Part shown: in pieces, positions 2,220-32,080 of the stretch
How the letters are laid out: each line of letters starts with the position of its first letter
Numbering within the stretch: position 1 is the first letter of the stretch
Translations under genes and position numbers: made by a program
Notes under the pieces: generated by a model
Database searches by the model: none
Told to the model about the DNA's origin: nothing
Seen by the model: the letters and a program-made list of their open reading frames with translations, nothing else
From: Heterobilharzia americana
Taxonomy: Eukaryota > Platyhelminthes > Trematoda > Strigeidida > Schistosomatidae
Reading direction: 5' to 3'
DNA: 64,000 bases
NCBI GenBank assembly: GCA_944470555.2
Contig: OX104127.1
Span: 157,021,276 to 157,085,275, forward strand

Positions 2220-5200
2220 GTACTATTGCATTAATAGACGATGATAAAGTTGAGTTAAATAATCTTCATCGACAAATTGCACATTCTGAGTCAACAATAA
2301 ATATGCCAAAAGTTAATTCATTAGCAAATAGATGCAAAGAGTATAATTAATTAATTATAATTTTCACTAATTTTAATATAATAATATATTTTAGATTAAA
2401 TTCTACTGTAAAAATAATTACGCATAAAACTCATTTGGATAATACAAATGCAATTGATATAATAAAAAAGTAAGCATTACAAATAGAATGCCTATTTTAA
2501 CATTTAAAACAATTAGACCCTTTTATTGAATATTATTATTATTATTTGTCCCTTGGGTTCCTAGTTGAACATAAAGCTTCAGTAGCACGTCTCCAGTGCA
2601 CTCTGTTCTCCGTAATCATTTGAACCTGGCTCCATGACAGCTCACAACCGCTCATTTCCTCCTCACACAATCTCCTCCATGTCACCCTCACCTCGGACGC
2701 CCAACTCATCGTTTCTCACCTGCGTTCCACTCGATGACAAAGTTTACTTGAACAAGGTGATGTATTTGTTCAATACATTTTGAACAATCTGATCACATAT
2801 ATTACATACATTGGAATAAAGTGATTATCATTATCATCAAAAAATTTTATAAACCCTATGTACAAGTTAAGTAATTTAGCAGCTGCTTCAACACCACAAA
2901 GTACAACAAACCTTTATCAACCTCATTCAATAGGTACATGACCATGCGACATGCCAAGTGCTTCACAATGGAAAGCTCAGTGATGCCTTTGAAGTGAAGA
3001 CAGGAGTAAGACAAGATACAGTTGCCTACCATCATTGATGATCTTCGTGATTTTGGTCTACTGGACTGAACTGGATCATGCAAGAATCTGTGAGGAGCGA
3101 GAGGTTGGGCATGTGCTGTTTGACCGATGAAAACACCCCAGGAGAAGATTTGGATTTCACCCATGATGATTTATGTCTAATATCTAATGTCGTGCACAAA
3201 CTTGAAGATCTACAGGTGAAAACTAACAAGTTGGCAGAAGAGGCAGAGCGGCCAATGAAGACGGGACTTCGTTCAGGTGAACGTAGAGAAGACATAGGTG
3301 ATGAAGATACCCAACTACCACCACCAACAACAACAAGAGGCACCAATCATCATGAAGGGGAGAAATGTAAACGAAGTAGTCTCTTTCACCTACCTATCTA
3401 CTTAGGCAGCATCATTTCAGTTACAGGCAGCAGCACAGGCACAAATGAAGGTGTCAAAGCTAGCCAAGACCATAAAGACAGCAAGACAGTCGTTCCTTCA
3501 TTGATCTGAAATAATCAGTGTGGAGATCTACTGCACTGCACTGCACTGCACTGCACTCAGCATAAAGCCTGAACAAGATGTGAATTTTCAACACTAATGT
3601 CAGTCAAGAAATTCAATGATTCTATGTGATGGTTGAGAAACTTGACACGTTACGAAAAGCATTTCCAACAAACTACAGACATACATGAACAGCTACCGCC
3701 TACACTCATTGGATACTGAAGATGAGATGGCCAGAATATAATAGGAATAAGCAAGGTGAAACTCTGTCTGGCTGGAAACGAACCAACCAGGAATCGATCG
3801 TCCAACACATATGCAGAAGAAGAGAGTGGAGATGAATTGGATTGAGTATAAACTGAGAAGATGGTTTGTGGACATCACGTGTCAGGTGAGGTCGTCGAAT
3901 GGAAGCCGCATGGGAAATGACGAGTTGGGCATCCGATACGATGGTGACATGGAGGAGATGATGTGAGGAAGAAATGAAAGCTTGTGGGCATTTGTGGAGC
4001 CAGGTTGAGAAGACTGTAGAGAAGAGAGTGAGATGGCAAAGTACTACTGAATGCCTATGTTCCACTAGGAACCTAAAAAATAATAATAGGAGTTAGGTTG
4101 CACCGAAGCCAACTGTATGTACGTTTCCCAACAAAAGCTTCCATATCACTTTACCGTACAGAAAGTTGAGTAGTGTGCCCCTGTCATGTAGGCTAACATC
4201 AACCATTAAGAAGATATATTACCCAGATAATCTTATCATTATGGAAAAGGCGAAACACATGCTTCACCTTAAACCTTAACAGTGATCAGGGATTACGTCA
4301 CATCCCATTATATCCAGCAATTCACATGTGTGTGTGCGGTCACACACAGGGAGGAGCAATCAAGTCATGCAGTTGAGGGTGGGATATGTACACCTAAATG
4401 GCTTCACAAACAAATCGGGTATGAAACCTTGATAAGCGCATTTGGGAGAGGACCGTTTTCATCTGTAGCTAAACATAGAAACAGGTCACTACTTAGATAT
4501 CACTCCGTTTCTGTTCACCTGTTTTTTGTATACTTCTGTGTAGTGTATCAACTTGAATCGATAAACTTGTGTGTGATGTGATTCTAGGTTGATTTTATCA
4601 TTCAATTAGCCATTAAGGATATTTGACAATGGGAGATTAATGATACTTTTCATTTGTTTGTTAATTTTAGTTATGATATTGTTATGGATTGTTCAGATAA
4701 TCTTGCCACACGTTACCTTATTAATGAAGCTTGTGCTATAACTGGACCTAAACCACTTGTTAGTGGTAGCGCTTTACGTTTAGAGGGACAAATGACAGTA
4801 TATCTAACGAAACAAATCTTATCTGAAGAAGATATATCATCAGGAAATAATCTTATCTCAGAATATCGTGCTCCATGCTTTCGTTGTATTCATCCTATTC
4901 CTCCACCAGCAAATAGTGTTCAAGGATGTTCAGAAGCCGGTGTTTTTGGTGTTGGTAAGTAACTTACATAAAATATATGGTTTAATACGTGATAATCAAA
5001 ATATGAAGTGTATTTGAAGTGTGGTTTTATAGATTTCATTCGCTTGACGAATACAACTACTAAATAAACAAGCTAGCTAGTGATAGGCTATTGTTAATCC
5101 AAGTTCACTTTCACGTTAACCATCAAGAATTGTTGTTTTATGCTCTTTTGTACTGATTTATTTATTATCTATGCAATGGAGTAAGAGTATTGAACATGCT

Positions 5201-8200
5201 CACTGTGAAATTCGCACATGAATTAAAACACTAACGCTAGTACCAGTTACTTCAGTGAATGTATTCAATCACTTCGTTTGACTTCATCATCATCTCATTG
5301 ACTGAATCATGATATGTATAAACAATGAGAATAAGTGGGAAAACAACGAAATTCAACGTTAATATCCTTATCCAAAACATAAAGAATTGGGAAAAATGGG
5401 GCATCGATAGACTGACTATCAAAAGCGACCTTGTGCACATTCATGTAGTAGGCAATGAGCCATACCTATGGTATTGTTAGGGTAAACGATTGTACTTGCC
5501 TACCAAAGCCTCGGTAAGTGGAGTGGTATTTGAACCTATGATACACTGAGGGTTGAAAGTCAACTCCTTAAATCAGTCAGCCACTTATCTTTGTTTCTCA
5601 CTCTAAAGGTTATTCTACCATGTTGAAACTAATCACCTCTCTTCTTCTTCCATCCAGTCATCTTGTATTGCTTGGTGCAAAAGTCACTGTGTTGATAAGC
5701 ACGAAATGTGTTCAAATCACTAATAGAATAACAATCTTCTGATTGAGATTACATCCTATGGTCTCGGGATTCATAAGTTAGTTTTATCAGCTAGTGCCAG
5801 TAACACTATAAAGACATGTGATGAAATGCTATAAGTTGCCAAACATCTTTGACTCGAAAAGGCTAGCTTATATATATGAAAGTAAATTCAAACTGATTGC
5901 TATGACTGGTAGTATGGCGTGACAGCCTACAAACGATGCGAACCTAACGCGCAAACAAATCGACTCTAACGCAAATCAGAACGTCAACCACCATCAAAAC
6001 AATACCATCGATGCGCGAAGAGAAGACAGACTGTTGACAGACTGCTTTTTACTGTCTCAACAACAGTCAAAACAGTTGACAGCAATGCTGAATATATACA
6101 CTCCTAGATGACCTTGACAACACGAAGTCCACATATAGGTTAAAATAGTAAACAACCAATGAGAGTCCAGCGTTGATAGGAGAGAGAAGAAAAAACTAGT
6201 AACGGTATGAAAACAATTATGTGGGCTATTTTAAAGTCATGCCTAAAACATTAGTCAAAAGCTATGCGAAATTAGGGTTATATATAGCATTGATATTAAT
6301 GGAGAACTTTGAACATAGCGTATATTAGCTGGACGAACATTGAAACACCGGTCCAAACATTCCAATGCATTCCTTTGCATCAGTAATAATCATTAAAGAC
6401 CTTTACCAATGTTCCCCGTAGGCTTTGATTAGATAATGAACAGTCAAAGACGCACTATAGATCACTTCAACTGTTCCTCGAAGTGTTGTATCTATTGTTC
6501 CAGTTGTATCCATGATATAAGAATCAAAGACTCCATCATAGTCTTACTAACGACTAACGTTTTAGACCAGGTCTCCACAACATGTCTGAATTACTGCCTG
6601 CCACTACCTTTGTCTTTTCCATTCCTTTAGTCCTCTCTCCCCATCACTGAGTAGGCTCTTCCATAGTCTACACTAAAGTTACTTTTGATTCTCATTGTGC
6701 TCTGAGCCTTCAGCAATATGTTCACATGAATCTATCAGTTCAAATGAAGGACCCCAGATCCACTACCTCTTTTCAACCTTTGTTCTCAGAGTCAGTCTTC
6801 TCCACTTCTAGCTTCAGACTGAAGGTGATGCCAAGCATCATCACGATAACATTGTCATCTCTGAAATAACCGTGCAGTCAATTAGTCGTTCAAGGCAGAC
6901 TCAGTATTCTAATTATAGAGTTGGGCCTAAAGGCTTTCAGGTTGTAGTCTTCCGACATCCATTTAGGTGCAAGTATACGAATGCTTGAACCAACGAAGTC
7001 ACTTTCTAAGCACATGCTTTAGAAGCAGTGATAACCCTCCACCGATTGTTTCCCTCGATAACGCGGTGATTGGTTTATCTGTATCTATCTTCGACTTGAG
7101 TTGGGATACGTCGCTGTTCCTGTCAGTCTCTACTATAGCACAGGCGACTGGAACTGTCACCTAAATAAACCTGGAAAGCTGTGAGAAAAAATAGGTGTTC
7201 TCAGGTACTCGAAGGTTGATTGCTGCGGAATCGACACACTGGTCATGTGAGTTCAAGTGAATAACCACACTTGGGTCTTTTATACATTCTTCACAAATGC
7301 AGCATACATCCAGGACATTAGATGCTAGGATATCATCTAGTCAGCATGTTCTTGGGATTGGATATATTCCTTCAGTAAACCAACGATGTGAACTAGAATC
7401 ATGACCGCGAACTGTAGACCTGTGTAAGGTTGAATATGATGTAGAGTTATCAGTAGTAATGTGAAGAAAACTTCAAAGGCAACGACGTAACTTGATGATA
7501 TTTATAAAGTGTGTGTGTTTGTGCATGGATGAGAAGATAGTTAGTATTTCCTACATGCGTACACTACGGAAGAATACTTCCTACAGAGCCTGAAATGAAA
7601 AGTTAATACGAAAGCACGATTTTGTGGACGTACTTGCTGGATCACACAGCCTGGGAGACTGTATGTCTGCAGGTTTTACATTTAGTTTCAGTTTTATGAC
7701 ATCTGTGCTTGACGAAATGCTTCTACTGTTAACACTAGAAGGCCACTGGACTGAGGTGAATGTTCAGTCTTAGTGATGAAATCTTCTTCTTCTTCTTCCT
7801 GAAGAATACAAGGTAACAGCAGCTTGTAAGGTCAGCTATCCTTATCCTATCAGTAGCGTCACTTAACCCTCTACCTCACTCCTCTTTTATGGATTTTTAC
7901 GGCTGTTGACTTTATTCTCATCACCATCCAAAAGACATTTATGGCTTAGAAGAACTGTAAAGAGCGATCTTCTCATACGGTATAGTTCTTTAGTTCTTGG
8001 GATATATGCAAGCCTAGTCATTGTATCAGATGGTTATCAGTTATTGATGAATATTGTTGAATGAGACTCACAAACCAATAATACATGCCATCTTTCTAAT
8101 GAAAACAAAATTTACTCCTATAGTATATATTCAAAATGCTAATCAGTTTCATCATAATTATTTTCAGTCCCCGGTATAATTGGAACTATGCAAGCGGCTG

Positions 8201-8230
8201 AAGTTATCAAAATATTAACTGGTGTGGGTG
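2220..8230 (+). CDS. MOCS3: MOCS3/UBA4-type E1-like enzyme, E1-domain part (4 exons)
   Basis: Four exons: 2220-2340, 2395-2469, 4671-4954 and 8168-8230. Each has AG/GT borders, and phases agree across all junctions. The product is the ThiF/E1 domain that adenylates URM1 and MOCS2A in tRNA 2-thiolation and molybdopterin synthesis. Visible signatures are [13 protein letters not shown] (ATP-site region), [23 protein letters not shown], the first zinc pair [11 protein letters not shown] and the catalytic-cysteine region [11 protein letters not shown], followed by [14 protein letters not shown]. An insertion of about 20 residues relative to vertebrate MOCS3 precedes CFRC. The nucleotide-binding Gly-rich N-terminus is upstream of the window or unseen. 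The exon for the second zinc Cys pair was not found. The rhodanese half is on the other strand at 17-21.7 kb, so this gene is interrupted. The last exon ends in phase 1. Confidence 0.92.
2530..2730 (-). mobile_element. RTE-like 3' fragment (minus strand)
   Basis: TTTGTCCCTTGGGTTCCTAG is the reverse complement of the RTE-like 3' terminus. Further bases match the opposite strand of the segment that in copy a lies at about 1800-1980. It is preceded by an ATT-rich tail. The fragment lies in the intron after the second MOCS3 exon, head to head with the next copy. Confidence 0.75.
2850..4085 (+). mobile_element. RTE-like non-LTR retrotransposon fragment (copy c)
   Basis: Starts in the RT domain near the 'fingers' after the catalytic region. 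Degraded homologues of [22 protein letters not shown] and DLDFADDL lie near 2905-3165, where the aspartate box is lost to HDDL. It ends in the shared 3' terminus near 4075. A (CTGCA)n run sits at 3532-3560. Stops and indels in all frames; non-functional. Confidence 0.8.
4090..4670. other. Intron sequence of the MOCS3-type gene, nothing recognised
   Basis: Remainder of the intron between exons 2395-2469 and 4671-4954. No exon or repeat family shared with other parts of the window was noticed. Confidence 0.5.
5435..5600 (+). repeat. tRNA-like dispersed repeat, family D
   Basis: The block reads GTAGGCAATGAGCCATACCT... and GTGGTATTTGAACC..., and ends in TCAGTCAGCCACTT. It recurs at 28325-28505 and 51985-52140 on the same strand and inverted at 8675-8820. 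The tRNA-like B-box stretch (GGTTCGAACCCATGA in the 52 kb copy) suggests a SINE. Confidence 0.7.
5601..8160. other. Long intron of the MOCS3-type gene, mostly unassigned
   Basis: No exon was recognised between 4955 and 8167. Besides family D (5435-5600) and family C (about 6050-6230), the sequence is AT-rich and unassigned. Several short open frames exist (for example 6436-6630 and 6967-7164), but none has a recognised domain or a good splice context. Confidence 0.45.
6050..6230 (+). repeat. Dispersed repeat, family C
   Basis: About 180 bases (ACAGTTGACAGCAATGCTGA ... GGTTAAAATAGTAAACAACC ...) recur inverted at about 17785-18005 with moderate divergence. It contains a CCAAT block (AACAACCAATGAGAG). 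The 17.8 kb copy directly precedes a Sm-alpha-type SINE leader. The class is unknown; it could be part of an LTR or a 5' extension of a composite unit. Confidence 0.65.
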
Positions 8231-8339
8231 GTAAGTAAGTTATCTTGTTGAATTATGAAAAATGCAGTAAGAAATTCTTTACAGTGTGTGTGAATTCTTT
8301 CTCATCTATTTTATAATAAAAATATTTTAACTCATCCTA

Positions 8340-8625
8340 ATTATTGCTATTCCTAGTATTATACCGTCGTTGATTGGACCGAATCGATCAGTCTTTACTG
8401 TCATATGGGCTCCTGCACAGATGCCTCGATATTGCGTCAATATCTCACAAGAATTGGTTATCGTGGTTCCTTGGTCTAGTGGATAACGCTCTCGCATTTG
8501 AAGCGGACGGTACCGAGTTCCAATCCCAGTGGGAGGTAGGTACGTCCAGCTGACGAGTCCAAAATAGAACGAAATGCGAATCCTAGATTCCACTGCAAGC
8601 CACTATCCATCATTATTGTCCGAAT
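8340..8625 (+). mobile_element. Sm-alpha-type SINE, copy 3
   Basis: Leader (about 8345-8450), tRNA-like block (GGTCTAGTGGATAACGC, about 8471-8487, then GAGTTCCAATCCC) and hammerhead tail. It follows the last visible E1 exon of the MOCS3-type gene by about 110 bases. Confidence 0.82.
8544..8588 (+). ncRNA. Hammerhead ribozyme, slightly degraded
   Basis: CTGACGA, then GTCC...GAAC (one stem II pair lost against the consensus GGAC), GAAA, and the cleavage triplet ATC before CTAGAT. Stem I is weakened by the G-to-A change in CTGGAT. The catalytic core bases are all present. Activity is uncertain. Confidence 0.7.
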
Positions 8626-8674
8626 GGTTTTTGTTTGCTCATTGATGAAACAGGAATTTATCTATTATCTTTAA

Positions 8675-8820
8675 GGCTGTTTTAGTGGATATGCGACTCA
8701 TCGGTCTAGGTTGTAACTACACTCCGGCTCCGTAGCCAGGTAGTGAGTATCATTAGCCCTCTCACACTATAGGTGTGGCTCATTGTCTACTGCACGAATG
8801 TGAATAAAGTTGTTGAGTAG
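8675..8820 (-). repeat. tRNA-like dispersed repeat, family D (inverted copy)
   Basis: GTGTGGCTCATTGTCTACTG is the reverse complement of the family D start seen at 5440, 28345 and 51990. Confidence 0.65.
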
Positions 8821-8999
8821 TTTTTAATTGCAATGATTTTTCAAGACCGTTTATCCAAAATCCACTAGTGAACCAGCAATGTTTGATAACTTGTCTACCA
8901 TCATTAACACTACTGTATATAATGCGCATTTAACTCTGAAAGGGTACAAATGACCATACAGCGCGGAAATAATGAGTCACACCTTCAGTATTAGGGATG

Positions 9000-9340
9000 A
9001 CGATGTATAAAGAGGCTTTCTTTACTAGAAGTCAGGTGTTCTGAGAAGGCTTCTGATGTGTGTACCATAGGTCGCACGTCGTGGTGTCACCACGTGAGTA
9101 ACTCAGATGTCAGGAGATAAAGTTTTAATAAGGAGAAGATAGTCAGTTGATGAGGTCTTGAACCTTCATCGACTATAGCGGTTGGGATATGCATTACGCA
9201 TGCTTAGCCGCCATCTGCTTCGTCGTGCAACGTTAACTGAAGTAAGTTCAGGCTAGAAAAAAGCTTGGAACGGCTGGACTACTACATGACATTAGCGGAT
9301 AAAACCTTTGAGTCGTGTAGGAAGATGCAAACTAGCCAAT
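9000..9340 (+). mobile_element. Family 2 non-LTR retroelement, 3' fragment
   Basis: Degraded frames resemble a non-LTR RT C-terminus (VLNLHRL, then LRMLSRHLLRRA, then KKAWNGW). Bases near 9080-9110 (GTGGTGTCACCACGTGAGTA) match the inverse of the family 2 copies near 24650 and 60450. Multiple stops. Confidence 0.65.
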
Positions 9341-9654
9341 TGGGTTAACACATAGCAACAAACACCTATGATTGAAAACTTGAGGTGATATGACTTAGAA
9401 CCGATGTCAGTGATGCAAATGTTTCCACACATAATCTACATCTTTACAGGTATACTAAATTCAACGTTTTCTCTTATTCTTCCTTCCTCTCTTTTTAAAA
9501 AAAGTTGTTTTCTAGTACTTTCACCGATTTTTCTCTCTTCCTTCAACTTTCATCTTACTACTTTGTTACTTGTTGGGCTGATATAAGATGTGGTAATTTG
9601 TATCGTTGTTGTATGTTGATATTGATTGAATAATTGAAGCCAAGTGTTAAAAGC

Positions 9655-9723
9655 NNNNNNNNNNNNNNNNNNNNNNNNNNNNNNNNNNNNNNNNNNNNNN
9701 NNNNNNNNNNNNNNNNNNNNNNN
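9655..9723. other. Assembly gap (69 N)
   Basis: Sixty-nine consecutive N. It separates the + strand E1 exons of the MOCS3-type gene from its - strand rhodanese exons, so it is a candidate misjoin. Confidence 0.99.
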
Positions 9724-9960
9724 CATCAGCGGTACGCACCCACGGCCCGGCTAAGGACGGAACTCAGTACCTTCAGGTTTCACGGCGAACGCGTTAACCA
9801 TTTAGCAACCAGGTCGGTTTTCAGTGGTTCACAATTTCCAACTTCTGTCAAATCACGACATAGCGTGACTATCACCCGAGGTCTTTAGTCAGCATCCTCA
9901 GAAAGTGATACCTGCAACCGTGACGAGACTGATGTTCCTGCCCCCTCCTGAGATTCTAAT
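9724..9960 (+). repeat. tRNA-like dispersed repeat, family B
   Basis: Begins inside the repeat right after the gap (GGTACGCACCCACGGCCCGG). It contains GGTTTCACGGCGAACGCGTT and GTTCACAATTTCCAACTTCT. It recurs near 22060-22250, 22440-22690 and 50890-51060, and inverted at 51140-51420. Repeat sequence at a gap edge is a usual cause of assembly error. Confidence 0.75.
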
Positions 9961-10129
9961 CCACATCATAAGTGCTCCAGCCAGTCACTGCATAGAGACT
10001 AATCTCATATTGTCTAGTCCTGAGGGGTGATTGAATTTTATCGATCATGTAGTCATACCAAGGTAGGAGGTTTACTATCTCTAGAAACCGATATTCTAAT
10101 TCACTATCTAAAGGGATTACTTCCATGAT

Positions 10130-11215
10130 GCGCTTTTAATGTCCCATTTACATTTAGTAACTACTTTTATCGACAAAAAAAGGCAGTATTCGTGAGTTCA
10201 CCAGTGGGCCCTCTTCTAGCAGCAGATTGCTTCATGGATAGTTTAAAAAATAGTATACTACAACATCTAATCAATCATTGTGCAATCCCATCTGTTAAGA
10301 AGATATATGGACGGTATCTTTATCATCTGTGATGAGAAAGTTGATCTTGATGCCGCTCCCCTTAAATTCACTGAGATTCGATCCTTCTAGCAATTTGACG
10401 ATCGAATTAAGAACAACTCAGAAGTTCATTTTTTTTTATATTTCTTTGAAGAGAAAATTTGATAACTCTTCAAAACAACCAATCTATAGGAAGCCAATAT
10501 GATGTAGACAACACATTCATTTTCAAAGTTTTCTACAACCAATTTGAACCATGTTTATTCGCTCTACACAAGAATCAGAAGAATATGCACAATTGACACA
10601 ATAGAGAAAGTGAATTAAAGCATCTTTGAAAAGTACTTCTTCAAAATGGTTATCACTCAATCAATGTTCATCGAAAAAAAAACACATGAAGCTAAACAAT
10701 TACAAGAAGAAGTACTTACTCTTCCTAAGAAGACCTAATTCATGAATATTGAGTTCAGAGAGGACAACACATCAGAAATACTGAACAACTATTTCTCCAA
10801 AGCATTCAAACAAACATTCTGTCCCATCGAACTATAAATGGTTTAATCTAATCGACAGTTGATTTAAGCAAGTGCGAAGAACAAACTGCCGCTTTGAATC
10901 ACATGTATATGTGTCTATCAGTTTACTTGTGATTGTAAAGCTGGTTATGTAGGCCTCACAAAAAGTAGTCATTCTAAACGCATCTCAAAGCACCACCCTC
11001 GTTGGTTGTACAGAGGAGAAGGCAAGTCAAGTAATAGCTCGATATTAGATCATTTAGACCACTCTAATTATGTCGCTTCCCTACAGTCTTCTTTTGAAAT
11101 CCTATACAAGTCAAAACCAAACAGCTATAAAAGAGTATAGAAGCGTTGACAATAGAACAATTAAAACCCAAGCTCTATGTACAGGAGAGGTAAGTCCTTT
11201 TCTTATTCTGTCTTA
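10130..11215 (+). mobile_element. Penelope-like element, degraded (RT and GIY-YIG parts)
   Basis: Broken frames carry SSPVGPLLAADCF (RT 'MGSP' region, near 10200), VKKIYGRYLYHL (near 10290-10325, where Penelope-like elements normally have RYVDDTF; the aspartates are lost) and FTCDCKAGYVGLTKS followed by KRISKHHPRWL (about 10920-11010). The last part fits a GIY-YIG endonuclease start (CxC...YVG.T...RI..H.P). Many stops; dead copy. Confidence 0.75.
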
Positions 11216-11870
11216 GTCACAATCCTTCCTTGAGTTTTTTTTATTACTCCAATATTCATCTTACTCTGATTGACTGATTACTTTTATTGCTTTTACTTCC
11301 CTACATTTTTACATGGTAGTTCTAATTTTTCATTAAAATTCTTATAATATTTTATTCAGATTATTAACCATTATTTTTCATCTGTTTATTTACTAACCTA
11401 TTTTAGTCATCATCTCAATTGACTGTATATTTTCATGATACACCCAGTAATTACGCAATCTCTTCCAATTCCATATAAGACTTGTTTATTTGATTTATAA
11501 CACACAGTGAGTGATATAGTATTATTTAATTGATGACCATTTGAGTATAAATGATCACTGTTCATAATCATATCAATGCAATCACACTACTTTCAACATA
11601 TGATTTTTTATGGGCCTGTCACTAGTGTTCTTCGATTTCATCAATAATAAGTTTTCCACTATAGGTTTTGTGTCAATTCCTAATAAACGTGTTGGGTGTT
11701 AGTTGATTCGATGAATGAAGATTCAGTAATCAATCTCTTAACCTCACTTAGTTTACTAGTCGGCCCTAAACTCGGATAAAGAGGGAAATTTAGGCACAGG
11801 GCTAGCAACCCTACCCTACCCCGTAAAACTAACTCCATAGCTAAAGAAACTTCAAATCACAAAGAAAATG
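11216..11870. other. Unassigned stretch
   Basis: AT-rich sequence with no recognised coding or repeat structure, between the Penelope-like remnant and the RTE-like copy. Confidence 0.4.
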
Positions 11871-11879
11871 CAAAACATA

Positions 11880-14720
<2,841 letters not shown>

Positions 14721-14734
14721 AATAATCAATCCCT

Positions 14735-14942
14735 CACTTTCTCCACCTAGTTATAGTTGCCTTGAGTACATTAGTTGTATCCCACCCATCCTATCATGTG
14801 ATTGTATGTTAATGCACACGTTGCAATTGTCGACTTACTTTCTAATTATTGTTTTTATTGGGATCTGTTATTCTACCTTTAGCTAAATTGGTATGTTCCG
14901 CTAATCTAAATGAATCCAACCGGCTAGTTTGACTTATGTGCT
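14735..14942 (-). mobile_element. Penelope-like element 3' part, inverted arm
   Basis: Reverse complement of 15420-15628 with high identity (for example CCACCTAGTTATAGTTGCCT against its complement near 15597-15616). Encodes on the - strand the GIY-YIG/C-terminal region in degraded form. Forms an inverted pair with the arm at 15420-15628. Confidence 0.8.
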
Positions 14943-15079
14943 TGACCTCACGGTAATTACATGGACTTCAGGACATTTCATCCAATGTCAGTCAGTGAAG
15001 GCAGGTTTAGTCATATGTCTAAATGACAGAGCTAGAAAACTGACTAGTCAGTACAAAGACCTAAACAAGAACTGAAACA

Positions 15080-15630
15080 TATAAAAAAAGCCCTAGTAAC
15101 TAATAATTATCCTCCACAGTTTATTAAGAAGTCTTTAAGTACACGTAAGAAACAAAATAACAGTAACATGAATACGAATACTAATGACAACACGAGTAGA
15201 AATAAGTTGAAAGCTTCTATTGTGTTACCATACCATATAGGGAAAGTACATCAGAAACTTTACGTAAGGTTTTCAGCAAAGCTGGAATTAAAGTGGCGTT
15301 TAAACCTACAAAGTCATTGAGAAATGAGCTTCGTCGGCTTCAGGATCCGATAGAAACAATTAAGTAAAATAATCGAATCTATCAAATTTCATGCAATGAA
15401 TGTGACGGGTCAAGTAAATAGGTGAAACTAGCCGGTTGCATTCATTTAAATTAGCAGAACATACCAATTTAGCTAAAGGTGGAATGGCAGATCTCAATAA
15501 GATCAGTAATCTAGAAAGTAAATCGACAATTGCAACGTGTGCATTAACACACAATCACATGATAGGATGGGTGGGATACAACCAATGTACTCAAGCAACT
15601 ATAACTAGGTGGAGAGAGTGAGAAATTGTC
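15080..15630 (+). mobile_element. Penelope-like element, 3' region
   Basis: Frames give ASIVLPYHIGKVHQKL, then FHAMNVTGQVNR, then NLAEHTNLAKGGMADLNKIS, STIATCALTHNHMIGW. This is the order found at Penelope-like C-termini (LPY...; 'ISC..C' start of the GIY-YIG domain; 'S.IATHAL...H.I.W' end). Stops are present. Paired with the inverted arm at 14735-14942. Confidence 0.75.
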
Positions 15631-15639
15631 TATTATTAT

Positions 15640-15890
15640 TTTCAGCGATGTTACCCATAACCTTTAACCACTGATTTCTTTCGTCTCGAGAACACCAACC
15701 ACGTAGTCACGTCTTGCTCTGGCCACCCTAAACTCTTTTCCAACCTTATTCAACTTCCGCCAGCATGACAGGTTGAGGTAGGCAATAGATCGGTATGCGC
15801 AGTACAAGTTCAAGATATCTCAGACGATAAAGGTGTACAACTTTATCAATCATTTTTCCCCAGACGGTGATTCCACTAAATACTATCTGA
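15640..15890. other. Unassigned stretch
   Basis: No gene recognised. Contains some GC-richer blocks without a match elsewhere in the window. Confidence 0.35.
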
Positions 15891-15894
15891 GATA

Positions 15895-16035
15895 GCCAAG
15901 GTTTAGCAAACTTGCATTACTATTACTGGGTGATGAATGGAAATGAAAAGAAAATTAGGATCGCATCAGGATTCCCACCAGCGACCTTCGGGGTTATCGA
16001 CCCACTATTCTACCAACTATAAAAGAAGAAATCTA
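15895..16035 (+). repeat. tRNA-like dispersed repeat, family F (partial)
   Basis: ACTGGGTGATGAATGGAAAT and the following bases match 27470-27600 and 62080-62170. tRNA-like (CCCACTATTCTACCAACTAT resembles the D-arm complement of a tRNA). Confidence 0.6.
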
Positions 16036-16261
16036 CGCTTGTTCACCTATTTTGGGCCCAGAATAATTCATATATATACGTTTTTTGAAGAATCACAACT
16101 ACATATGTGTATTGATTAATTCAGCTCAACTCAACAAAAAGTAGCACAAACATTCGAGCTACATATGAAGAAGTGATTCATGCATTGCTTCGAAACAGAA
16201 ACTTAACAATTCCATTTATTGTGTAATATTGGTGCTGTTGTTAGTACCAATCACTATTAAC

Positions 16262-16918
16262 TGAAGAAATCTAAAGGAAGTTGTCTTTTTCACCTACCTA
16301 CCTGTCTGGGCAGCATCCTTTCTACTACAGGCGGCACAGGCGAGGATGTCAAAACCAGGATCTGAAAAGCAAGACAGGCTTTCATTAATCTGAAATCAGT
16401 ATGGAGATCTACTGCACTCAACACAAAGAACAAGATCCGGATATTCAACATCAATGTCAATTCAGTGCTGCAATATGGTTCGGAAACTTGGAATGTCATG
16501 GAATCATTTCCAACAAACTACAGACATTGGTCAACAGCTGACTACACTGACTCGATACTGAAGATCAGCTGGCCAGAATAATGAGAATAGGTAACAAGGA
16601 ACTCTGGCTGGTGACGAACCAACCAAGAACCTATCACCCAACAAATATGCACTGGAAGGAGTGGAGATAGAGATGGATTGGGCATACACTGAGAGGCCGA
16701 TTGAGGACATCACGCACCAGGCCAGTCGCTCGAGTGGAATCCAAAGGGGAAACGACGAGTAAGGCGTCCGACTGTGACATGGAGGAGATAGTGTGAGGAA
16801 GAAATGAAAGGTTGCGGTCAGTCGTGGAGCCATGTTAAGGAGACAGACTGAAGAGAAGAAAGTGGAATGGAGACGTGCTACTGAAGCCCTATGTTCCACT
16901 AGGAACCCAAGGGAAAAA
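16262..16918 (+). mobile_element. RTE-like non-LTR 3' fragment (copy e)
   Basis: Same C-terminal RT region as copies a, c, d and h: the CACCTACCTACC block (near 16290-16301), CTACAGGCGGCACAGGCGAG, then ATCCGGATATTCAACATCAA, and the terminus CCACTAGGAACCCAAGGG near 16895. Frameshifted. It lies only about 50 bases from the splice donor of a MOCS3 rhodanese exon. Confidence 0.8.
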
Positions 16919-16969
16919 TAATAAATAATAATAATATATATGTAATATTGGAAAGTAAAATATGCATAC

Positions 16970-19900
16970 CAGGAAAAGGTAGGGTAGCACCTTTATTACT
17001 GATCCCATTGTCAATAGCCTCTCGGATATCAGATATAACTGATTCACGAAAAAGTTCATTGAACGGAATATCTAATAAATAAAAAACGATGATTTATTGT
17101 AGAGAAATAGTAAATGGCTTGTAAAACATAAGTTAAGTAATAAATAGATTTTCAGACATACATCCCCGTATCATGCCTCCGTGGCATAGTGAGTAACCCC
17201 TCAGCATTTAAAGTGATGGCTACGAGGTTCAAATCTTAGTGAGAGCAACATCACTTACTGGGGTGCAGGCATATCTAGTTAACGAGTCCCGAAATAGGAC
17301 GAAACAAGCGTCCTGGATTCCTCGGCTAGCCACAACCAACCAAATTACCATAAAACCCCATACTCTGTTGTTTAACATCTTCTTAACTACTTGCTCAAAT
17401 ACTACTTAATTTATTTCTCATAATCATGAAAATTTTCTTCAAACCTCAGTAAACGACATTATTTACCATGCAAATGTATCCATACTCTCACGATAACATC
17501 TTACGCATCTTATGTGATACATTTCCAATTGAGTTGGATTAGTAGCTGGAGATTTGTGCATACAATATTTTGTACAAAGAGTGGAAGCAATCATACATCG
17601 AGTCAGTGCTGATTACGATAAAAATCAGTATAGCTCACTGATATATTACTGCTAACTATTGGGAAGACTGGATAAAATAATCTATGATACCAAAAGGTAT
17701 CCTCTCCATAAAAAATTATTCTTTCATTAGAATTTAAGGTAGTTGAAAAATATTTATGTGTACAAATTACTGACCGTCTGCTATATACCCCCTATTTGGC
17801 ATAGCCTTTGACCGATCTTTTGCCCATGACCTTGAAATAATCTATCATACCTGTTTTTACACATTACTAGTTTTTCTACTCTGCCCTCTCAAGGTTGAAC
17901 ACTCATTGGTTGTTCACTATTTTAACCTAAATGTGGATTGTGTTCTCAAGGTCATTTGGAAATCTGTGTATACTCAGCATCGCTCTCAACTGTATTGACT
18001 GTCTAGTGTTAATGCTTGTATTACACCGTCGTTGATTGGACCGAATTGATCAGCCTCTGTTGGTACATGGGCTCCTATGCGGATGCCTCAAAATTGCCTG
18101 TCTTTTAATTATGTATAGTAATGATGGGCAGCAGCTAGCACTGGAATCCAGAATGCGCGTTTCGTCCTATTTGGAACTCGTCAGCTGGATGTACCTGCCT
18201 CCCAGTGACCGATTTTGTTCCCACTGGGTTGTTCTCACGTTTAAAGTGATCGCTCCCGAGTCCCGTTGGGAACAACATCACTCACTAGGAGGCAGGTACA
18301 TCCAGCTGATGAGTCTCAAATAGGACGAAAGGTGCATCCTGGATTCCACTGCTCGCCACTGCCCAACATTACTATACATGTATTGACTGTTGTTTATCTC
18401 CTCTTTTTGTGTTCGCCTGTTAGTGATATTGTTGTTGTAGTGGTTGACGTTCTGATTTGCTTTAGATTCGTTTTGTATCGCTAGTAGACTTTTAGGTCAA
18501 CTACCGGTTCATAGCACCATCAACTCATATCACGAAGACAGGGCTATTATCCTTCACATAAATTAATTATTTGATTGATAATAAGTGAGTTTTAGACATT
18601 AGTCTTACATTAACCCTAAACAAGTAGGTAGGGATAATGTACCAGCAAAAGACAATGCTATACACCGACCAATGTTTACGAGTTACCTAAGATCTACTTG
18701 ATTGAGTGCAAGTCGCGGGAGGAAATGAGACAGACAGATCGATAAGGAACCTAACATTAAAATTATATCACTAGTGGAGATAATGGACGCCAATATACCA
18801 TATTTGTGTGTTTGTAAAACAGGTTATTACTATTTATTATTATTAGTCCCTTGAGTTCCTAATGGAACATAGGGCTTCAGTAGCACGTCTCCAGTGACCT
18901 CTGTTCTCTGAGATCTTTTCAACCTGGTTCCACGACAACCCACAAGCTCTCATTTCCTCTTCGCACGATCTCCTCCATGTCACCCTCGGACGTCCAACTC
19001 GTCACCTCCCATCGGGGTTCGACTCCAGGGCCTGGCCTGACGCGTGATGTCCCCAGTCGGCCTTCTCAATGCATGCCCAATCCATCTCCACTTCCTTCCA
19101 ATATGTATCTGTTGTGTGATAGGCTCTTGGTTGGCTCGTTTCCAGAGCTCCTTGTTGCCTATTCTTTCTGGTAATCCATCTGAGCTTCAGTAGCGAGCCA
19201 GCGTAAGCAGTTGTTGATGAATGTCTGTAGTTTATTGGAAATGCCTTTCGTAACGCTCCAAGTCTCTGAACCATACAGGAGCACTGACTTGACTGGTATT
19301 AATGTTGAGAATCCGGATCTTGTTCCACATGCTGAGTGCAGAAGATCTCCACACTGGTTTCAGACTAATGAAGGTCTGTCTTGCTTTTCCAATTCTGACT
19401 TTGACATCCTCGTCTGTCCCGCCTGTAGTTGATAGGTGAAGGAGGTTACTTCCTTTGAGTTTCTCCCATTGATGGTGATTGAAGTTTGTTGTTGCTGTTG
19501 TTGGAGTTGTTGGTGCGGTATCTTCATCACTTCTGTCTTCTCTATATTCACCTGAAGTCCCGTCTTCGCTGCCTCTTCTATCAACCTGTTAGTTTTCGCC
19601 TGTAGGTCTTCAAGTTTGTGTGACATCAGGCACAAGTCATCACTGGCGAAATCCAGATCATCTAGGTTCTTTTCCGCAGTCCAGCGTATCTCCCTCTTCT
19701 CACAGCGCCTCACTGTTTACTGCATGATCCAGTCGACCACAATCAGGAATATCATAGGTGATAGTAGGTGGCAGCCTTGTTTCACTCCTCCCTGTCTTCA
19801 CTTCAAAAGCATCACTGAGCTTCCCATTGTGAATTACTTGGCTGGCATGTGGCGTCTTCATATAGTTGTTGAATGAGGCTGATAAAGGTTTGCGGTACTC

Positions 19901-21651
19901 CGTAGTAATGAAACAGTTTCCAAATTACCTCTCGGTAAACAGGTTAATTGACTAAAATGAATAATTAAGAACAAAAAAACAAATATGATGATGAACAACT
20001 TACGCAACGATGACTTCAAATGGCAGATATCGAATTCAGTCTTCGGGCGTATATCGATAAGCAAGTACGACGATTGAGAGTCTATATAATTTTTTAATTG
20101 CTAAACAAAATAATTGTTATATATATACACACACGGAAAACATTTTTATTTACTTGAACAGTAATACGACGATTATTCATAATCATATTCATATTCCGTG
20201 GCTGTCAAATGAAAAATAATAAAAAAACATGACACATGAATGACTAATATCACTCGAAAGGAAACTATTACATAAATTAACAAAACTTTCAATGCCACAT
20301 CAACCTTATTCGCTAAGAAATTATACGTATGTCTGCACTTCGTGAGAAATACTTTCATAAGGCGCAAAGTTTCTCAACCATCACACAGAAACACTGACTT
20401 TCTTAACTGAGATTAGTGTTGAAAATCCGGATCTTGTTCACGCTTTATGCTGAATGCAGTGCAGTAGATCTCCACATTGATTACTGCAGATTATTGAAAA
20501 AAGACCTGTCTCGTTGTCTTTCCGATTCCGGATGGCTTTAACATCCTCAGCTGTGCCTGTGCCACCTGTAGTTGAGTCGTTGCTGTGTAGTTAGGTAGGT
20601 AGGTGTGGGGTGGTAGGAGGTAGGTAGGTGGGTAGGTAGGTAGGTAGGTAGGTAGGTAGGTAGGTAGGTAGGTAGGGGACATAGAGAACTCCGTTTAGAT
20701 TTCTCCCCTTCATGATGACTGGTGATTGGTGATTGTTGTTGTTTGTTGGGTATTTTCATCACCTCTGTCTTCTCTACACTCACTCGAAGTCACGTTTTCA
20801 TTGCCCTACCTCTTCTGTCAACTTGTTCTTGTTTGATTGTAGATTTTCGAGTTTTTACTTTCTAGACACTAGACATAAATCATCATGGGGTCTTTTCATC
20901 GGTCAGACAGCGTATGCCCATCTTTTTTCACAGCTCCTTAAGGTTTACTGCATGATCCAGTCGACCACAATCAGGAAGATAGTCGGTGATAATAGGCGAC
21001 AACCTTGTCTTACTCCTGTCTTCACTTCAAAGACATCACTGAGCTTTCCATTGTGAAACACTCCATAAATACTTAAATGTGTATTGTGTTCTCTTTTCTA
21101 GATTATGACAATTAATGATAATGAGTGATTATTCAAGATGAAATAGAATTCTAGGCAGCATAAGGATTTGAATCAGTGATCATCGAGTTCCCTACTACAA
21201 ATTCTATCAACCACAGTCATCTAACATTATCAAACTGACAATCGATATCATTATCCATCTCTCCAATTCACCTCAATTTAAATTGGGATGAGAAGTCCTG
21301 ACTGAGTAATCACTGTGGATACTATAGAACGATAGTAATGAATCATGAATCGAAGTGATATCATTGGTGACTAGAGTAAAATATAAATCTAGTCAGAAGC
21401 GAAGTCCCCATAGCTCATTTGACAGATCATAGAACTGCTAACCCTAAAGTTGCTGGTATGAATCTTGTCGCAACCTAAATTCTTACTTCTCTTTCAGTTA
21501 TAACTGTGTCAAACTAGGGCCATCTTAATTAGTTGAAGGCATCGAAGATAGTCAAATACACATTATGAAATTATTCATAGAATTAAGTAACATAGTCTAA
21601 TTTTTGATAAATATAAACTCTTACCATTTGATTGCTTGTAATTTCTAATAA
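16970..21651 (-). CDS. MOCS3: MOCS3/UBA4-type, rhodanese-domain part (3 exons seen)
   Basis: Read on the - strand: a probable 27-base exon 21651-21625, then 20081-20004, then 17071-16970. All have AG/GT borders and each ends in phase 1. Joined, they read NYKQSND / SQSSYLLIDIRPKTEFDICH / LKSSL / HIPFNELFRESV ... LPFP. This matches the start of the MOCS3 C-terminal rhodanese domain, which transfers persulfide sulfur to the thiocarboxylate carrier (family pattern DYK..LDS....LLDVRP..E.DICRL..ALHIP). The active-site cysteine loop follows the last seen exon and was not found. The previous E1 exons are on the opposite strand at 2.2-8.2 kb, and the entry phase (1) fits the exit phase of exon 8168-8230. 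The 27-base exon is the least certain. Introns hold RTE-like copies f and g and SINEs. Confidence 0.86.
17155..17345 (+). mobile_element. Sm-alpha-type SINE, 5'-truncated (copy 4)
   Basis: Lacks the leader but keeps the tRNA-like block (CCGTGGCATAGTGAGTAACC, 17178-17197) and hammerhead tail. It lies in the intron upstream of the 17071-16970 rhodanese exon, antisense to the gene. Confidence 0.8.
17271..17319 (+). ncRNA. Hammerhead-like sequence, core mutated
   Basis: Stem II (GTCCC...GGAC), GAAA, GCGTC and CTGGATTCC are kept, but the CTGACGA box reads GTTAACGA, and ATCCAG reads ATCTAG. Probably inactive. Confidence 0.6.
17346..17780. other. Unassigned intron-like stretch
   Basis: AT-rich, between a SINE and repeat C, within the MOCS3-type rhodanese-half intron. 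No exon seen. Confidence 0.4.
17785..18005 (-). repeat. Dispersed repeat, family C (inverted copy)
   Basis: Its reverse complement aligns with 6050-6230 across GCTGAGTATACACAGATTTC and GGTTAAAATAGTGAACAACC. It ends where the Sm-alpha-type leader starts. Confidence 0.65.
18145..18190 (-). ncRNA. Hammerhead ribozyme (minus strand member of a pair)
   Basis: On the - strand: ATCCAG, CTGACGA, GTTCC...GGAC, GAAA, CGCGCATT, CTGGAT. Core complete. The cleavage triplet is ATT, which still fits the NUH rule. Confidence 0.75.
18300..18344 (+). ncRNA. Hammerhead ribozyme (plus strand member of a pair)
   Basis: ATCCAG, CTGATGA, GTCTC...GGAC, GAAA, GGTGCATC, CTGGAT. Core complete, cleavage after ATC. This copy uses CTGATGA, the consensus core. 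Confidence 0.8.
18373..18825. other. Unassigned stretch
   Basis: No gene or known repeat recognised; lies in the MOCS3-type rhodanese-half intron. Confidence 0.35.
18826..19905 (-). mobile_element. RTE-like non-LTR 3' half (copy f)
   Basis: On the - strand it runs from the RT region to the shared 3' terminus (TTGAGTTCCTAATGGAACAT near 18852, with an ATT-rich tail). Frames include GEKREIRWTAEKNLDDLDF followed by ASDDL (aspartate box region), LINRLIEEAAKTGLQVNIEK, and RLGALRKAFPINYRHSS. A fairly well kept copy, yet frameshifted. It lies between rhodanese exons 20081-20004 and 17071-16970. Confidence 0.85.
20105..20350. other. Intron sequence, unassigned
   Basis: AT-rich intron between the 27-base exon and the 20081-20004 exon. 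No shared repeat noticed. Confidence 0.4.
20360..21062 (-). mobile_element. RTE-like non-LTR fragment (copy g)
   Basis: The - strand order is: [21 protein letters not shown] region (near 21050-21000), VDWIMQ (near 20955), degraded aspartate box (near 20890), a VEKTEVMKIPN frame (near 20780), a CTAC tract, then the RIFNTNL region near 20430. Truncated before the 3' terminus. Confidence 0.8.
20590..20677. repeat. (GTAG)n microsatellite in RTE-like copy g
   Basis: Pure GTAG units at about 20632-20676, with an interrupted outer part from 20590. On the - strand this is a run of CTAC at the point where other copies read TTCACCTACCTACC, i.e. the codons for the conserved 'FTYLGS' of the RT. The tract is an expansion of that motif. 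Confidence 0.95.
21140..21540 (+). repeat. tRNA-like dispersed repeat, family F
   Basis: AATCGATATCATTATCCATC, then AGTCCTGACTGAGTAATCAC, then a tRNA-like block near 21412-21470 (CCCATAGCTCATTTGACAGA). Shared with 23510-23770, 27470-27890 and 62070-62410. Confidence 0.6.
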
Positions 21652-21999
21652 CTAAAATTTTGATCTTTGTGTTTTTATATTGTATACTTGATTGATTACA
21701 CGTGATAAACAGATGTATAAGTAAATTTCACTCCATTGTTCAACATATCAATGATTGTACTTCTTTAATTGTACGCATTACATTAAGTTCATTTATATTC
21801 TTATCATCTGCTCAATAGTTTACATAGAAATTGTTAATTATACGAATATCTATTATAAAGGGAAACAATTGAACAAAGAATTTCTATTCTTAAAGTCGTT
21901 TAACTAGCTTAGTGATGATAGAGTTATGCATTTTTCTTAGATTGACTAGAAATAAATGATAATATTTTCATAAAGTCAACTAAGATTTCAAGCTACTTT

Positions 22000-22300
22000 C
22001 ATCATGGAGTGACATCAATTGAGGAACCTTTGAAAACTTGGATAGCTGTTTCATCCTAGTGAGGGAATACTTAATAGTACGCACTCGGACAAGGATATGG
22101 ACCGAACTCAGGACTTTTAGGTTTCACGCTGAACCCGTTAATCACTCATGACTGAGTAGGAGTCCAACGGTTCACAGTTTCCAACTCCTGTCAATTCATG
22201 ATATAGCCCAGCTATCACCCAAGGTCTTCAGTTGACATACTCTTCCCTACCGACTGGTTGACTGTACAAGCCACAGCTTCTCATCAGAAATTCCGGATAT
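22000..22300 (+). repeat. tRNA-like dispersed repeat, family B
   Basis: Contains GGTTTCACGCTGAACCCGTT and GGTTCACAGTTTCCAACTCC, matching 9724-9960 and 50870-51130. Confidence 0.7.
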
Positions 22301-22329
22301 CTATCTGGAAGCATATCACTAATGGGGAT

Positions 22330-22720
22330 GATACAGTTATGTATTGAGGTGAATGGGGATTTCAGTTTTGAGGTGGTATTCATCATGAGCTGATGTCATT
22401 TGGAGAAAAGCTGTAGACCTGTGAACACTGGACAGCTGTATCGTCGTAGTATGGCAATACTAAGAAGTAAGAACTTACGACCCGGCTACGGATCGAACTC
22501 AGGGCCTTCACTTCTTGCAGTAAACCCTTAAACTATTCATCCACTAGGTCAGAGTTCAACATACAGTTCATAGTTCCTACTTCTGTCACTTTGCGATATA
22601 TCGCAACTATCCACCAATTTTCTTATTCACGATTCACGTAAATTCCTACTGATCAACTTTATATGTCACAGTTTCTCATTAGAACTTCAGGATAGCCATC
22701 TCAATGTAAGTTAATTATGA
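22330..22720 (+). repeat. tRNA-like dispersed repeat, family B (second copy)
   Basis: GACCCGGCTACGGATCGAAC and TAGTTCCTACTTCTGTCACT match the copy just upstream, so the two copies lie in tandem about 370 bases apart. Confidence 0.65.
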
Positions 22721-23255
22721 GATGGATGAAGACAGACTTTTTACTAATGGTAACTTAACTCGACTTTAAGTCCTCTGTTGTTTTTAGATCTGTTAACAAA
22801 TGGTTATGGACATCCATTGTTCCATAGGCATCTTTTAGTGATTTGCAACAATTTCTTTCTTCAATTTATCCCGGAACAAGTCATTTTTCCTTTCTGAAAC
22901 CACATTCTACCTACCGCTTTATGATAATTTAAAAAAAAGGATACTAAGTAACATTTCACATGCACTTTCGATGAAATAACCTTGGGAGAGTACCATCTGT
23001 CGCATGTTATATTGCGAAATCTAGAATACATGACATCTTAAAAATGTTAGAAGAAGACAAGTCTCCCAAATTACGGCTATCTCATATAGTCAAAATAATG
23101 TAAGGCAGCAGTTCTGCATAAAACAGTATTGTCGATCTGAACATTTCTAACTTGGCATTCTCACACCATTTTACAGTATGACTAGTAGTTTAATTTCTGT
23201 CCCCATTGTAATTCGCTGACTGGTTAACTTTTATTCTTGCTACACGAATTTCTGC
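22721..23255. other. Unassigned stretch, possible retroelement debris
   Basis: A few short frames look RT-like on either strand, but nothing is firm. No MOCS3 exon with a Cys-x-x-Cys pair was found here, though the model needs one between here and the inversion end. Confidence 0.3.
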
Positions 23256-23259
23256 AATT

Positions 23260-23490
23260 GCGTACGAGGTAACATTTCATGTATGTACATACTCGTATTT
23301 TGGATTGATATATTATTACATTCTCGGAGTAATAAACTCTCGCATCTACCAGCTTCGGTCTTCGCTCTATTCGCCCCGGGGTTGCAGTCAGTGGCTCTTG
23401 CATACTAAGTTGACTGTCAGCTAAGCGTGCGTATCCTATTACTAGTAATATATATATATAACCGTTTGCCTACGAAGATATAACAGATAA
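23260..23490 (+). mobile_element. Possible solo LTR
   Basis: A GC-mixed block with AGTAATAAACTCTCGCATCT (poly(A) signal AATAAA) and then TCTTCGCTCTATTCGCCCCG and GGTTGCAGTCAGTGGCTCTT, ending in ...GATATAACA. This is the layout of an R/U5 segment of a retroviral-type LTR. No paired LTR or gag-pol found in the window, and ends not fixed. Confidence 0.3.
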
Positions 23491-23509
23491 TCAATCTGAT
23501 GCTCACCCC

Positions 23510-23770
23510 CCCCCGACCACCTCTCTAGTTCACTTTGATTTGAACTGAGTTCTGACTAAGCAGCCAGGATGAATACGACAGTAACGCGTCACGAATCCAT
23601 ACGTTAGTCGGGCAAAAGCCTTGATAACTGAGGTGAAATTTAAATCTGATCAGAAGCCGGGTCTCGCAGCTATTGGTAGAGCAATTTGCTGGTTCGAATC
23701 CTGCTACGGACCATATAGAAGTTACGGTTCATTGCGTACAGCACGTACATAGTTGCACTGCACTTCACTC
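23510..23770 (+). repeat. tRNA-like dispersed repeat, family F
   Basis: ACTAAGCAGCCAGGATGAAT, TAACGCGTCACGAATCCATA and AGTCGGGCAAAAGCCTTGAT match 27800-27890. They are followed by a tRNA-like block (GCTATTGGTAGAGCAATTTG and GGTTCGAATCCTGCTACGGA) with good internal A- and B-box likeness. Confidence 0.7.
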
Positions 23771-24099
23771 AACAATTTATGGTGAGAATTAACTTGACGT
23801 TTTACTGAAACAGTAATTAACCAGCAAGCCAGTAATCAGAAAGAAGCAGTTTCTAGTCTCTTCGTACTATCATTTGTTTCAGTTCACCCTCTTGGCATTA
23901 CTATCTGACTTTGATCCTAATAATTTTCTTTGTTTATGAAAACCCACTGACGTCTTGTCGCGTCATCCTTTCATAGCGCAGTATTTATTTATGTTTACCA
24001 GACTCGTCTTCACCTGTTGTTTCATCTTTCTTAAATATGGACAATCTTAATAACATCTGCAGATGTGATCCATCAATGCTGCCTCCGTTTAAATTGAGG

Positions 24100-25600
24100 C
24101 CATCATCATGAACATAGGACCAGGTATTACTGCTTAACGGTCTGAGTTGTCACAGTTCATATCAGTACATAAAGTAAACAAGGCAGTGAAGTGGAACATG
24201 AAGAAAAAAAGAAAATTCAGTCAGAAGAAACATCAAGTACTAGAAGGAAAGGAAGAATGAGAAAATGGTGAGATTCGGTATAGCGTTGTTAAGATGAGGA
24301 TAATGTGTGTATACATCTGTACCACTGATATCCATTCGTGGCCATATAACCTAGAGTTAGTCTCGAACCTCTGAGTCCTCTTGTCTGCCGACCCTAATCG
24401 CATAGTCTGCATCACCCCACATGGCTCAAACCAACAGTCAAACACTTCACACATTCATCCCATGTTTTAGTCTGGCCACCTCAGGCCTTTTTTCAGCCTG
24501 AACGTAACTCGGCCAACATCATATGACGAGTCAGGTGGTGATTAGGCATACGTAACCTGTCCCAACCATCTCAGTCGATGAAGGTTTACAACCACATCAA
24601 CTAACTTACCTCTTCTCACTCCCTAAAACTCTACACCTGACTTCTGTGTTACTCACGTGATGACACCACTAATCACGGCCTATACTATGAAGGGAGTAGT
24701 GGTAAAACACCTGAAGCTTTCTCATGTCTTCCACCTTCAATGGCCATGTTTCACAGCCATACAGTAGAACAGATCGGACTTTTGTGCAGTATACGCGATC
24801 ATTAATAGGCATTCGGATATCACAGCGGCTCCACAGGTGAAGTGAGTTGGGAAAAGCCATTTAAACCTTTTGTACTCGTGCAGAGATTAAATTGGCCACT
24901 AAGCCACCAGGGCTGATCCTACTTCCCAGGTAGGTGAAGTGGTCGACATACTCAACCACTACGCTCTTTATTGTTAGCCGAGGCACGTCTGAAGACCAAT
25001 CCTCGCGCAGCAATTTGCATTTGGGTGGTGAGAAACGCATCCCAAACATTCTCAATTCGCCACTCATGGTGTTCAGAAGACTCTGCATCTTGTCAGCGTC
25101 TTCACCTAACAGGACAATGTCATCTGCGTATTCTTGGTCTAACGAAAATTATTCTGTGATTAGATCAACCTCTGTGTAGTCAGGCGACGAAAGGGAGACC
25201 TTCACAGGAATATCTATGATAAAATTGAATAAGAATGGAGACAGTGGGCACGCATGACGAACACAGCTCCCTGGACATCTCACTATAGGCTCTAACATGC
25301 CCACAAGTGTTGGAGTAGACAGCCTTCGACAAGGTAATGTTTTTACTCGGCACACCTTTCAGTGAGAGACACTGCCATAAGACTTCTCAATCAACGGGGT
25401 CGAATGCCGCTTCAGGTCGAGAAATACAGCTAGTGTCCGGGCGAGGGTGAGCTTCCTTATGTTCCAGAGTCTGGCGCAGTGTGAATATTTGGCTATCGTG
25501 TATCTATAACTGACTACGACAATCAAATCTCTATTCCATATCAAATGTTCTTGTAAATATGTAAGGTACCATTCCATTAGAATGGAGGTCAAGGCGATTA
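24100..25600 (-). mobile_element. Family 2 non-LTR retrotransposon, RT part (longest copy)
   Basis: The - strand frames give ACPLSPFLFNFIID (near 25260-25215), EYADDIVLLGEDADKMQSLL (25132-25073, catalytic YADD box intact), FGMRFSPPKCKLL, VDHFTYLGSRISPGG, then KVRSVLLYGCETWPLKVEDM. This is a standard non-LTR RT with its C-terminal domain. Frameshifts separate the parts, so it is a pseudogene, but it is less decayed than most copies here. 3' part shared with 59900-60720 and 62500-62900. Confidence 0.85.
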
Positions 25601-26250
25601 AAATCTATCACAAAGTAGAGTGACTAACTTCTAGATACAGTAATCTCAACGAAAAGCTTCTATTACATCTAATATTAATGTATTCCAGGAATCCAATTAT
25701 CAATGAGCACTTCTGTCACAAAAGAATGAAGAAATGTACAGACAGACAGAAAAAAAACCAACGTAGAACCTCACACATCGGTTCAAGTTGCCATACTTCA
25801 GAAAACATTAACTTCAAACATTTACCCATATGTAAAAATAATTCACCAACATATCAGAATTAACATAACTATCACAATGAAATACTTTAATCCTTATAGA
25901 AATATGTACCTAGTTGGTAAAGTAAACCGAACCCTACGAAAAAACATATCATTATTAACGGTTACTCATTTACGTACAAACTATTGTGAAGTGGTACACA
26001 CACACACACACACACACATACACCTTTGAAGTTATAAATTTGATAATAAATGAATTGAACTCAACCAGTAACATGAATAAATTGAAATTTATACAGATCA
26101 AATTTAATCATGTAAAGGGGTATACAAGGAAAAAAGATATTCCTAAAGAGAAAATAATAATTCGATAAATAAGTAAAAACAAGGAACACGGAAAGAAACA
26201 AAAACCTTTGTGACATCACAATTTGAAAAAAGAAGTAGAATATGATGGAG
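25601..26250. other. SEC22 downstream region
   Basis: AT-rich, non-coding, includes a (CA)n run at about 25998-26019. The part just below 26254 should be the 3' UTR of the SEC22-type gene. On the - strand an ATTAAA motif lies near 26108-26103, about 150 bases after the stop. Confidence 0.5.
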
Positions 26251-26253
26251 ATA

Positions 26254-31512: not shown

Positions 31513-32080
31513 GAAGCAGAATTGATACTGAGATGTATAGAAGATTGTGAGCGCGAAAGTTAATAGTGCCTGATATTATTTGCTCCAAGAGCACCGGTTG
31601 ATACCAAAGCAAGATTCATGCACTGAATCTAGACGTAAAGCGAGTATCCAGGTATTTAGATCTTCAACAACAAAAAACGCCTTTAGGTAAATACACAACC
31701 AGGTACACGTGTAACACCTGAAGCCTTCTAGGCGCACTAAGACCTTGACTAAGTAGCACATCCTTAGATGTGTTTAAACACAAACTGCACTTAAACCATG
31801 TGTAATCATACTGAATTCGGAGTTTTTCAGCCTACAGCTTGCTTTTTGTGGGGGTTGTTGGTGAAATTTAAGTGAGACTGCAGACTCTTGTTGCCTAGTA
31901 ACTTTGCCACAAACCAGCTTCAGCAGACTGGTTTCTCCATACTGGTTTCTTGATGCTGAACAACAGTTCAATGCATTTGGTGGATGCAAATATCTCCCAA
32001 AGCTCTAATGAACTAAACAACACATCCCACTAATCCAATGTCTAATACTGACAGTGGAAGTGTAGAAAACTGATAGTTTT
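31513..32080. promoter_or_regulatory. Upstream region of the SEC22-type gene
   Basis: The start codon at 31512 is read on the - strand, so the 5' UTR and promoter should lie here. No TATA box or spliced-leader acceptor could be assigned with confidence. Otherwise nothing recognised. Confidence 0.3.

Follow-up and report, generated by a model that had tools for sequence, protein, structure and literature searches.

A MOCS3 gene split over two strands in a Heterobilharzia americana assembly probably reflects a misoriented haplotype piece

We have examined a MOCS3 gene of the schistosomatid fluke Heterobilharzia americana that is broken over two strands of contig OX104127.1 (here C1), and judge from sequence comparison that the break is very probably an assembly artefact, in which a haplotype piece of about 11 kb would have been placed in the wrong orientation beside a gap; an inversion was not demonstrated. 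The window, i.e. the whole 64,000-nucleotide stretch that was analysed (C1:157021276-157085275), contains seven of the eleven recognised coding exons, E3-E6 on one strand and E8-E10 on the other. The missing exons occur on leftover contigs of this assembly, where their order is normal, and the split is thus most likely an assembly mistake. Moreover, the two joins on C1 fall at a gap (9655-9723) and within a repeat (~20.39-20.66 kb).

MOCS3 is linked to molybdenum cofactor synthesis. Its yeast counterpart, Uba4, is described in PMC7527816 as adenylating and thiocarboxylating Urm1 for tRNA thiolation. Genome-wide searches covered the assembly of 337 contigs and 664.9 Mb, and 284 kb of C1, comprising the window and 110 kb on each side, was examined around the locus. 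Two further contigs of this assembly, C326 (50,850 bp) and C40 (14,121 bp), are probably unplaced, judged by their sizes of 50.85 and 14.1 kb; C40 was read whole, and C326 over ~20 of its 51 kb. P0005 is a predicted MOCS3 protein of H. americana from another assembly, encoded on a contig of different length (159,726,811 against 162,555,998). Exons are numbered E1-E11 for the coding exons recognised here, the start-codon exon being outside the set.

Upstream of the window, matches to schistosomatid MOCS3 place E1 at -7896 to about -7820 and E2 at -267 to -175 relative to the window start. On the plus strand of the window follow E3 (ThiF domain, 2220-2340, with splice borders), E4 (2395-2469), E5 (4671-4954, PF00899) and E6 (8168-8230, leaving in phase 1), each an open frame with a schistosomatid MOCS3 match. 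E5 differs from P0005 by one amino acid in the exon-coded part. E3-E6 share one open frame, and E2-E6 when joined matched PF00899 with E=2.2e-65, indicating that the ThiF-type E1 adenylation domain is present and upholding an earlier reading of four E1-domain exons at 2220-8230. The minus strand carries the linker exon E8 (20201-20154, entering in phase 0) and the rhodanese exons E9 (20100-20004) and E10 (17071-16970), all matching MOCS3. E9 by itself scored 19 bits against PF00581, below the cut-off of 22.2, and E8-E10 joined scored 27.6 bits against the same cut-off, as a partial rhodanese domain. The joined exon peptides matched the MOCS3/Uba4 proteins of Schistosoma turkestanicum, S. mansoni, S. 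japonicum and Trichobilharzia regenti at 81-83% over 77% of the query, and P0005 of H. americana at 98% over 56% of the query; in contrast to these proteins, the window has its seven exons on two strands.

The preliminary description of this DNA had proposed that the two halves, separated by an N gap, form one MOCS3 gene. The gap was confirmed as 69 N at 9655-9723, and the unity of the gene is borne out by P0005, which joins E3 to E11 in a single predicted protein; only in this protein, from the other assembly, were the adenylation and rhodanese domains observed together. The details required revision. Among three minus-strand exons proposed between 21651 and 16970, those at 20100-20004 and 17071-16970 were retained, and a 27-nt exon at 21651-21625 was rejected as spurious: by comparison with MOCS3 of S. 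turkestanicum, S. mansoni, T. regenti and H. americana, the exon before E9 lies at 20201-20154, and the 27 nt belong to a stretch, outside MOCS3, that shares 97% identity with a site 2.29 Mb away. An acceptor assigned to 20081 fits better at 20100. The phase agreement said to connect the halves (exit 1, entry 1) breaks down, as the true first minus-strand exon, E8, enters in phase 0; the phase-1 exit of E6 fits E7, an exon not found in the window.

In P0005, the coding stretch of E7 (DVHIGRLFLL...SCDK) lies between E6 and E8, and that of E11 (VILLCHRGN...) follows E10. Neither was recovered from the 284 kb of C1: pieces of E7 and of the C-terminus gave matches at E 0.26 or worse, and E11 gave none at E 1 or better. 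The idea that the window or the 110 kb to each side of it conceals these exons was therefore rejected, only weak matches having been obtained there. When the whole genome was searched with P0005, nine matches were returned, four on C1 at this locus, four on C326 and one on C40, with E7 on both C326 and C40 and E11 on C326 alone. A second complete MOCS3 was rejected, since all nine matches fall at this locus, C326 or C40. PF00899 gave 16 matches in the genome, three of them at this locus, and two of the other 13 were inspected (L001, C4:37045879-37046784, minus strand; L002, C4:37117127-37118032, plus strand). Both are pieces of E1-like genes with 711-codon open frames; they lie ~70 kb apart in opposite orientation, are 99.86% identical over 3,444 bp of compared stretches, and may stem either from an inverted duplication or from duplication during assembly.

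On the minus strand of C326, E7, E8, E9, E10 and E11 follow one another in the normal order, bordered by GT/AG. E7 opens with two bases that complete the phase-1 codon of E6, and the entry phase is 0 for E8 and E9 and 1 for E10 and E11. C40 holds a second copy of E7. E11 on C326 (L034, C326:31331-31121) consists of three family-matching pieces that do not all share a reading frame. Its VILLCHRGN loop contains, in LLCHRGN, the cysteine that we take to be the catalytic one of the rhodanese loop; the frame of E11 is interrupted on C326. The frame breaks could stem from faulty sequence or from a genuine truncated allele. In P0005 the later frame change recurs, and the protein lacks at its end the conserved DVAGGLSAW tail, which can still be read in a different frame.

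Given these positions, inverting one segment of the window fails to restore MOCS3, because E7 and E11 are not found in the 284 kb. A single inversion would need both exons inside the gap, represented by only 69 bp in the assembly, and would be possible if the gap were much longer. The proposal of a flipped segment is thus incomplete, as E7 and E11 were not found in the 284 kb but on C326 and, for E7, also on C40.

The segment of the window at 9724-20390 resembles an allele of C326:31554-42.1 kb and is misoriented relative to E1-E6; the comparison covers 9724-10976 and the part from 15466 onwards. Beside the gap, window 9724-10976 and C326:31554-32808 share 99.1% identity over 1,255 bp. Window 15466-20628 aligns in the same orientation with C326:37155-42351 at 95.9% overall, with a mean of 98.25% at 15466-18665 (16 bins of 200 bp, each 95.5-100%), 86-95% per 200 bp at 18666-19865, inside a repeat, and 99-100% per 200 bp at 19866-20265. 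The drop to 86-95% in the repeat at 18.7-19.9 kb suggests that the segment may itself be mosaic. Two other features of this region were observed: a 79-codon open frame at 10901-11140 with weak Pfam matches below the cut-offs, which may be a retroelement remnant, and a long (CTGG)n tract in a repeat at 14274-14405.

C40 starts at the position of window 20204, near the right junction, and follows C326 in two blocks (94.2% and 98.0%) to the end of C326, before running 5.3 kb further. This further part matches the window only in a repeat. The stretch read at the far end of C326 consists of N only and gave no match. The repeat copy in MOCS3 intron 4 (window 3157-4088) is 96% identical to C40:12794-13722, near the end of C40, and the other 38 of the 40 matches listed, excluding those to the window and C40, reach at most 81%; the similarity reflects either a recent copy or a further sign of mixed assembly.

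The left junction is the 69-N gap at 9655-9723, the only gap in the 284 kb, which narrows an earlier placement of the left breakpoint anywhere between 8.23 kb and the gap to the gap itself. The sequence at its right edge corresponds to C326:31554, from which point C326 goes on to reach the last exon after 223 bp. The right breakpoint, previously located at 21.65-26.25 kb, lies instead at ~20.39-20.66 kb (20390-20663), within a repetitive element that contains a (TAGG)n tract, where the window departs without any N from the sequence shared by C326 and C40. From ~20.39 kb the window is at first ~6% divergent from C326 (~94% identity at 20390-20589), by 20.66 kb the similarity is at family level only (~78%), and after ~21.06 kb there is none. 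In a three-way alignment of this junction, C326 and C40 agree where the window differs, and past ~20.39-20.66 kb C326 runs on towards E7. C326 thus runs past both window junctions and contradicts each of the joins made on C1; C40 contradicts the right one as well. Window 20589-23058 is a 2.47 kb stretch with 97%-identical copies at C1:154754074-154756541, 2.29 Mb away, and C278:14925-17390, and may be a mobile element, a duplication or a third misplaced piece. As 20390-20589 is still ~94% like C326 and only the sequence after 20589 is 97% like that elsewhere, the join is no clean single point.

The right flank is formed by a SEC22 gene on the minus strand (26263-31512), recognised from four ordered pieces that match residues 1-212 of the 215 of human SEC22B. 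Between it and the junction lies a LINE-like fragment (24100-25492) with an RVT_1 score of 28.4 bits, just below the cut-off of 29.6, and 35 matches listed elsewhere in the genome at 81-83%. Both flanks were compared with the genome. Window 8100-9654, which includes E6, and window 28496-31600, the 5' part of SEC22, each gave one full-length match, to itself, besides repeats. Such results are weakened by the fact that lists can miss matches: in a DNA search with window 8160-27200, in which 38 candidates were scored, C326 was missing from the list despite partial identity of 99%, so that absence from lists of this kind is weak evidence. E6 and window 8620-9654 were absent from the whole of C40 and from the ~20 of 51 kb of C326 that were read, and SEC22 28496-31600 was not listed on C326; hence sequence links neither contig to a flank. 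What ties C326 to the flanks is protein P0005 together with the exon phases.

The preliminary description had left the choice between a wrong assembly and a real inversion. C326 and C40 support the former, and the latter was not demonstrated. A real heterozygous rearrangement would have E8-E10 inverted on one chromosome, perhaps by recombination between repeats, with E7 and E11 lost or displaced, and we regard this as unlikely. The right junction does lie inside a repeated element without an N gap, and C326 holds the 3' half in normal order, as the normal allele would beside a non-functional MOCS3 allele. Against a rearrangement, there is an N gap at the other junction, two exons must also be lost or moved, the adjoining E7 piece exists separately as C40, which starts near the junction, and P0005 from the other assembly joins the exons in one protein. 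If a rearrangement of this kind were real, a repeat-mediated break of MOCS3 would be segregating in the fluke as a heterozygous null haplotype.

The presence of two copies of E9-E10 in the assembly, on C1 and C326, could also be explained by a real inverted duplication, in which E8-E10 were copied between MOCS3 and SEC22 in addition to a complete gene with its 3' half unplaced. We consider this very improbable, as one junction is an N gap and the copies diverge by 1.75% on average at 15.5-18.7 kb, and more in the repeat at 18.7-19.9 kb, which is of the same order as the divergence of C40 from C326 (2% and 6% in the two blocks) and as expected of alleles. Trans-splicing between opposite strands, joining the halves at the RNA level, has almost no claim to belief: nothing was found in its favour, proper splice borders alone do not require such joining, and E7 and E11 stand in order with E8-E10 on C326, so that cis-splicing suffices for MOCS3.

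Under the preferred reading of an assembly artefact, the animal's MOCS3 would be an ordinary gene with E1-E11 all in one direction. The E8-E10 piece of one haplotype (~10.7 kb) would have been set back to front between E6 and SEC22, with the rest of the 3' half left behind on small contigs. C326 and the window segment would then be two alleles, and C40 and the window segment would belong to the same haplotype. The error may have come from a repeat-driven overlap or from scaffolding, and E6 and SEC22 are probably separated by more than the 18 kb shown. False duplications and misjoins occur in diploid genome assemblies, and they likewise show a near-identical unplaced copy, a gap at one join and a repeat at the other.

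MOCS3 function is ordinary, and a loss of function in the fluke is unsupported. Gene models built on this assembly could show MOCS3 as truncated, or as two pieces on opposite strands, and such broken models could be misread as a loss of tRNA thiolation in the fluke. Seeking the missing exons on small contigs is a cheap check before a broken essential gene is accepted.
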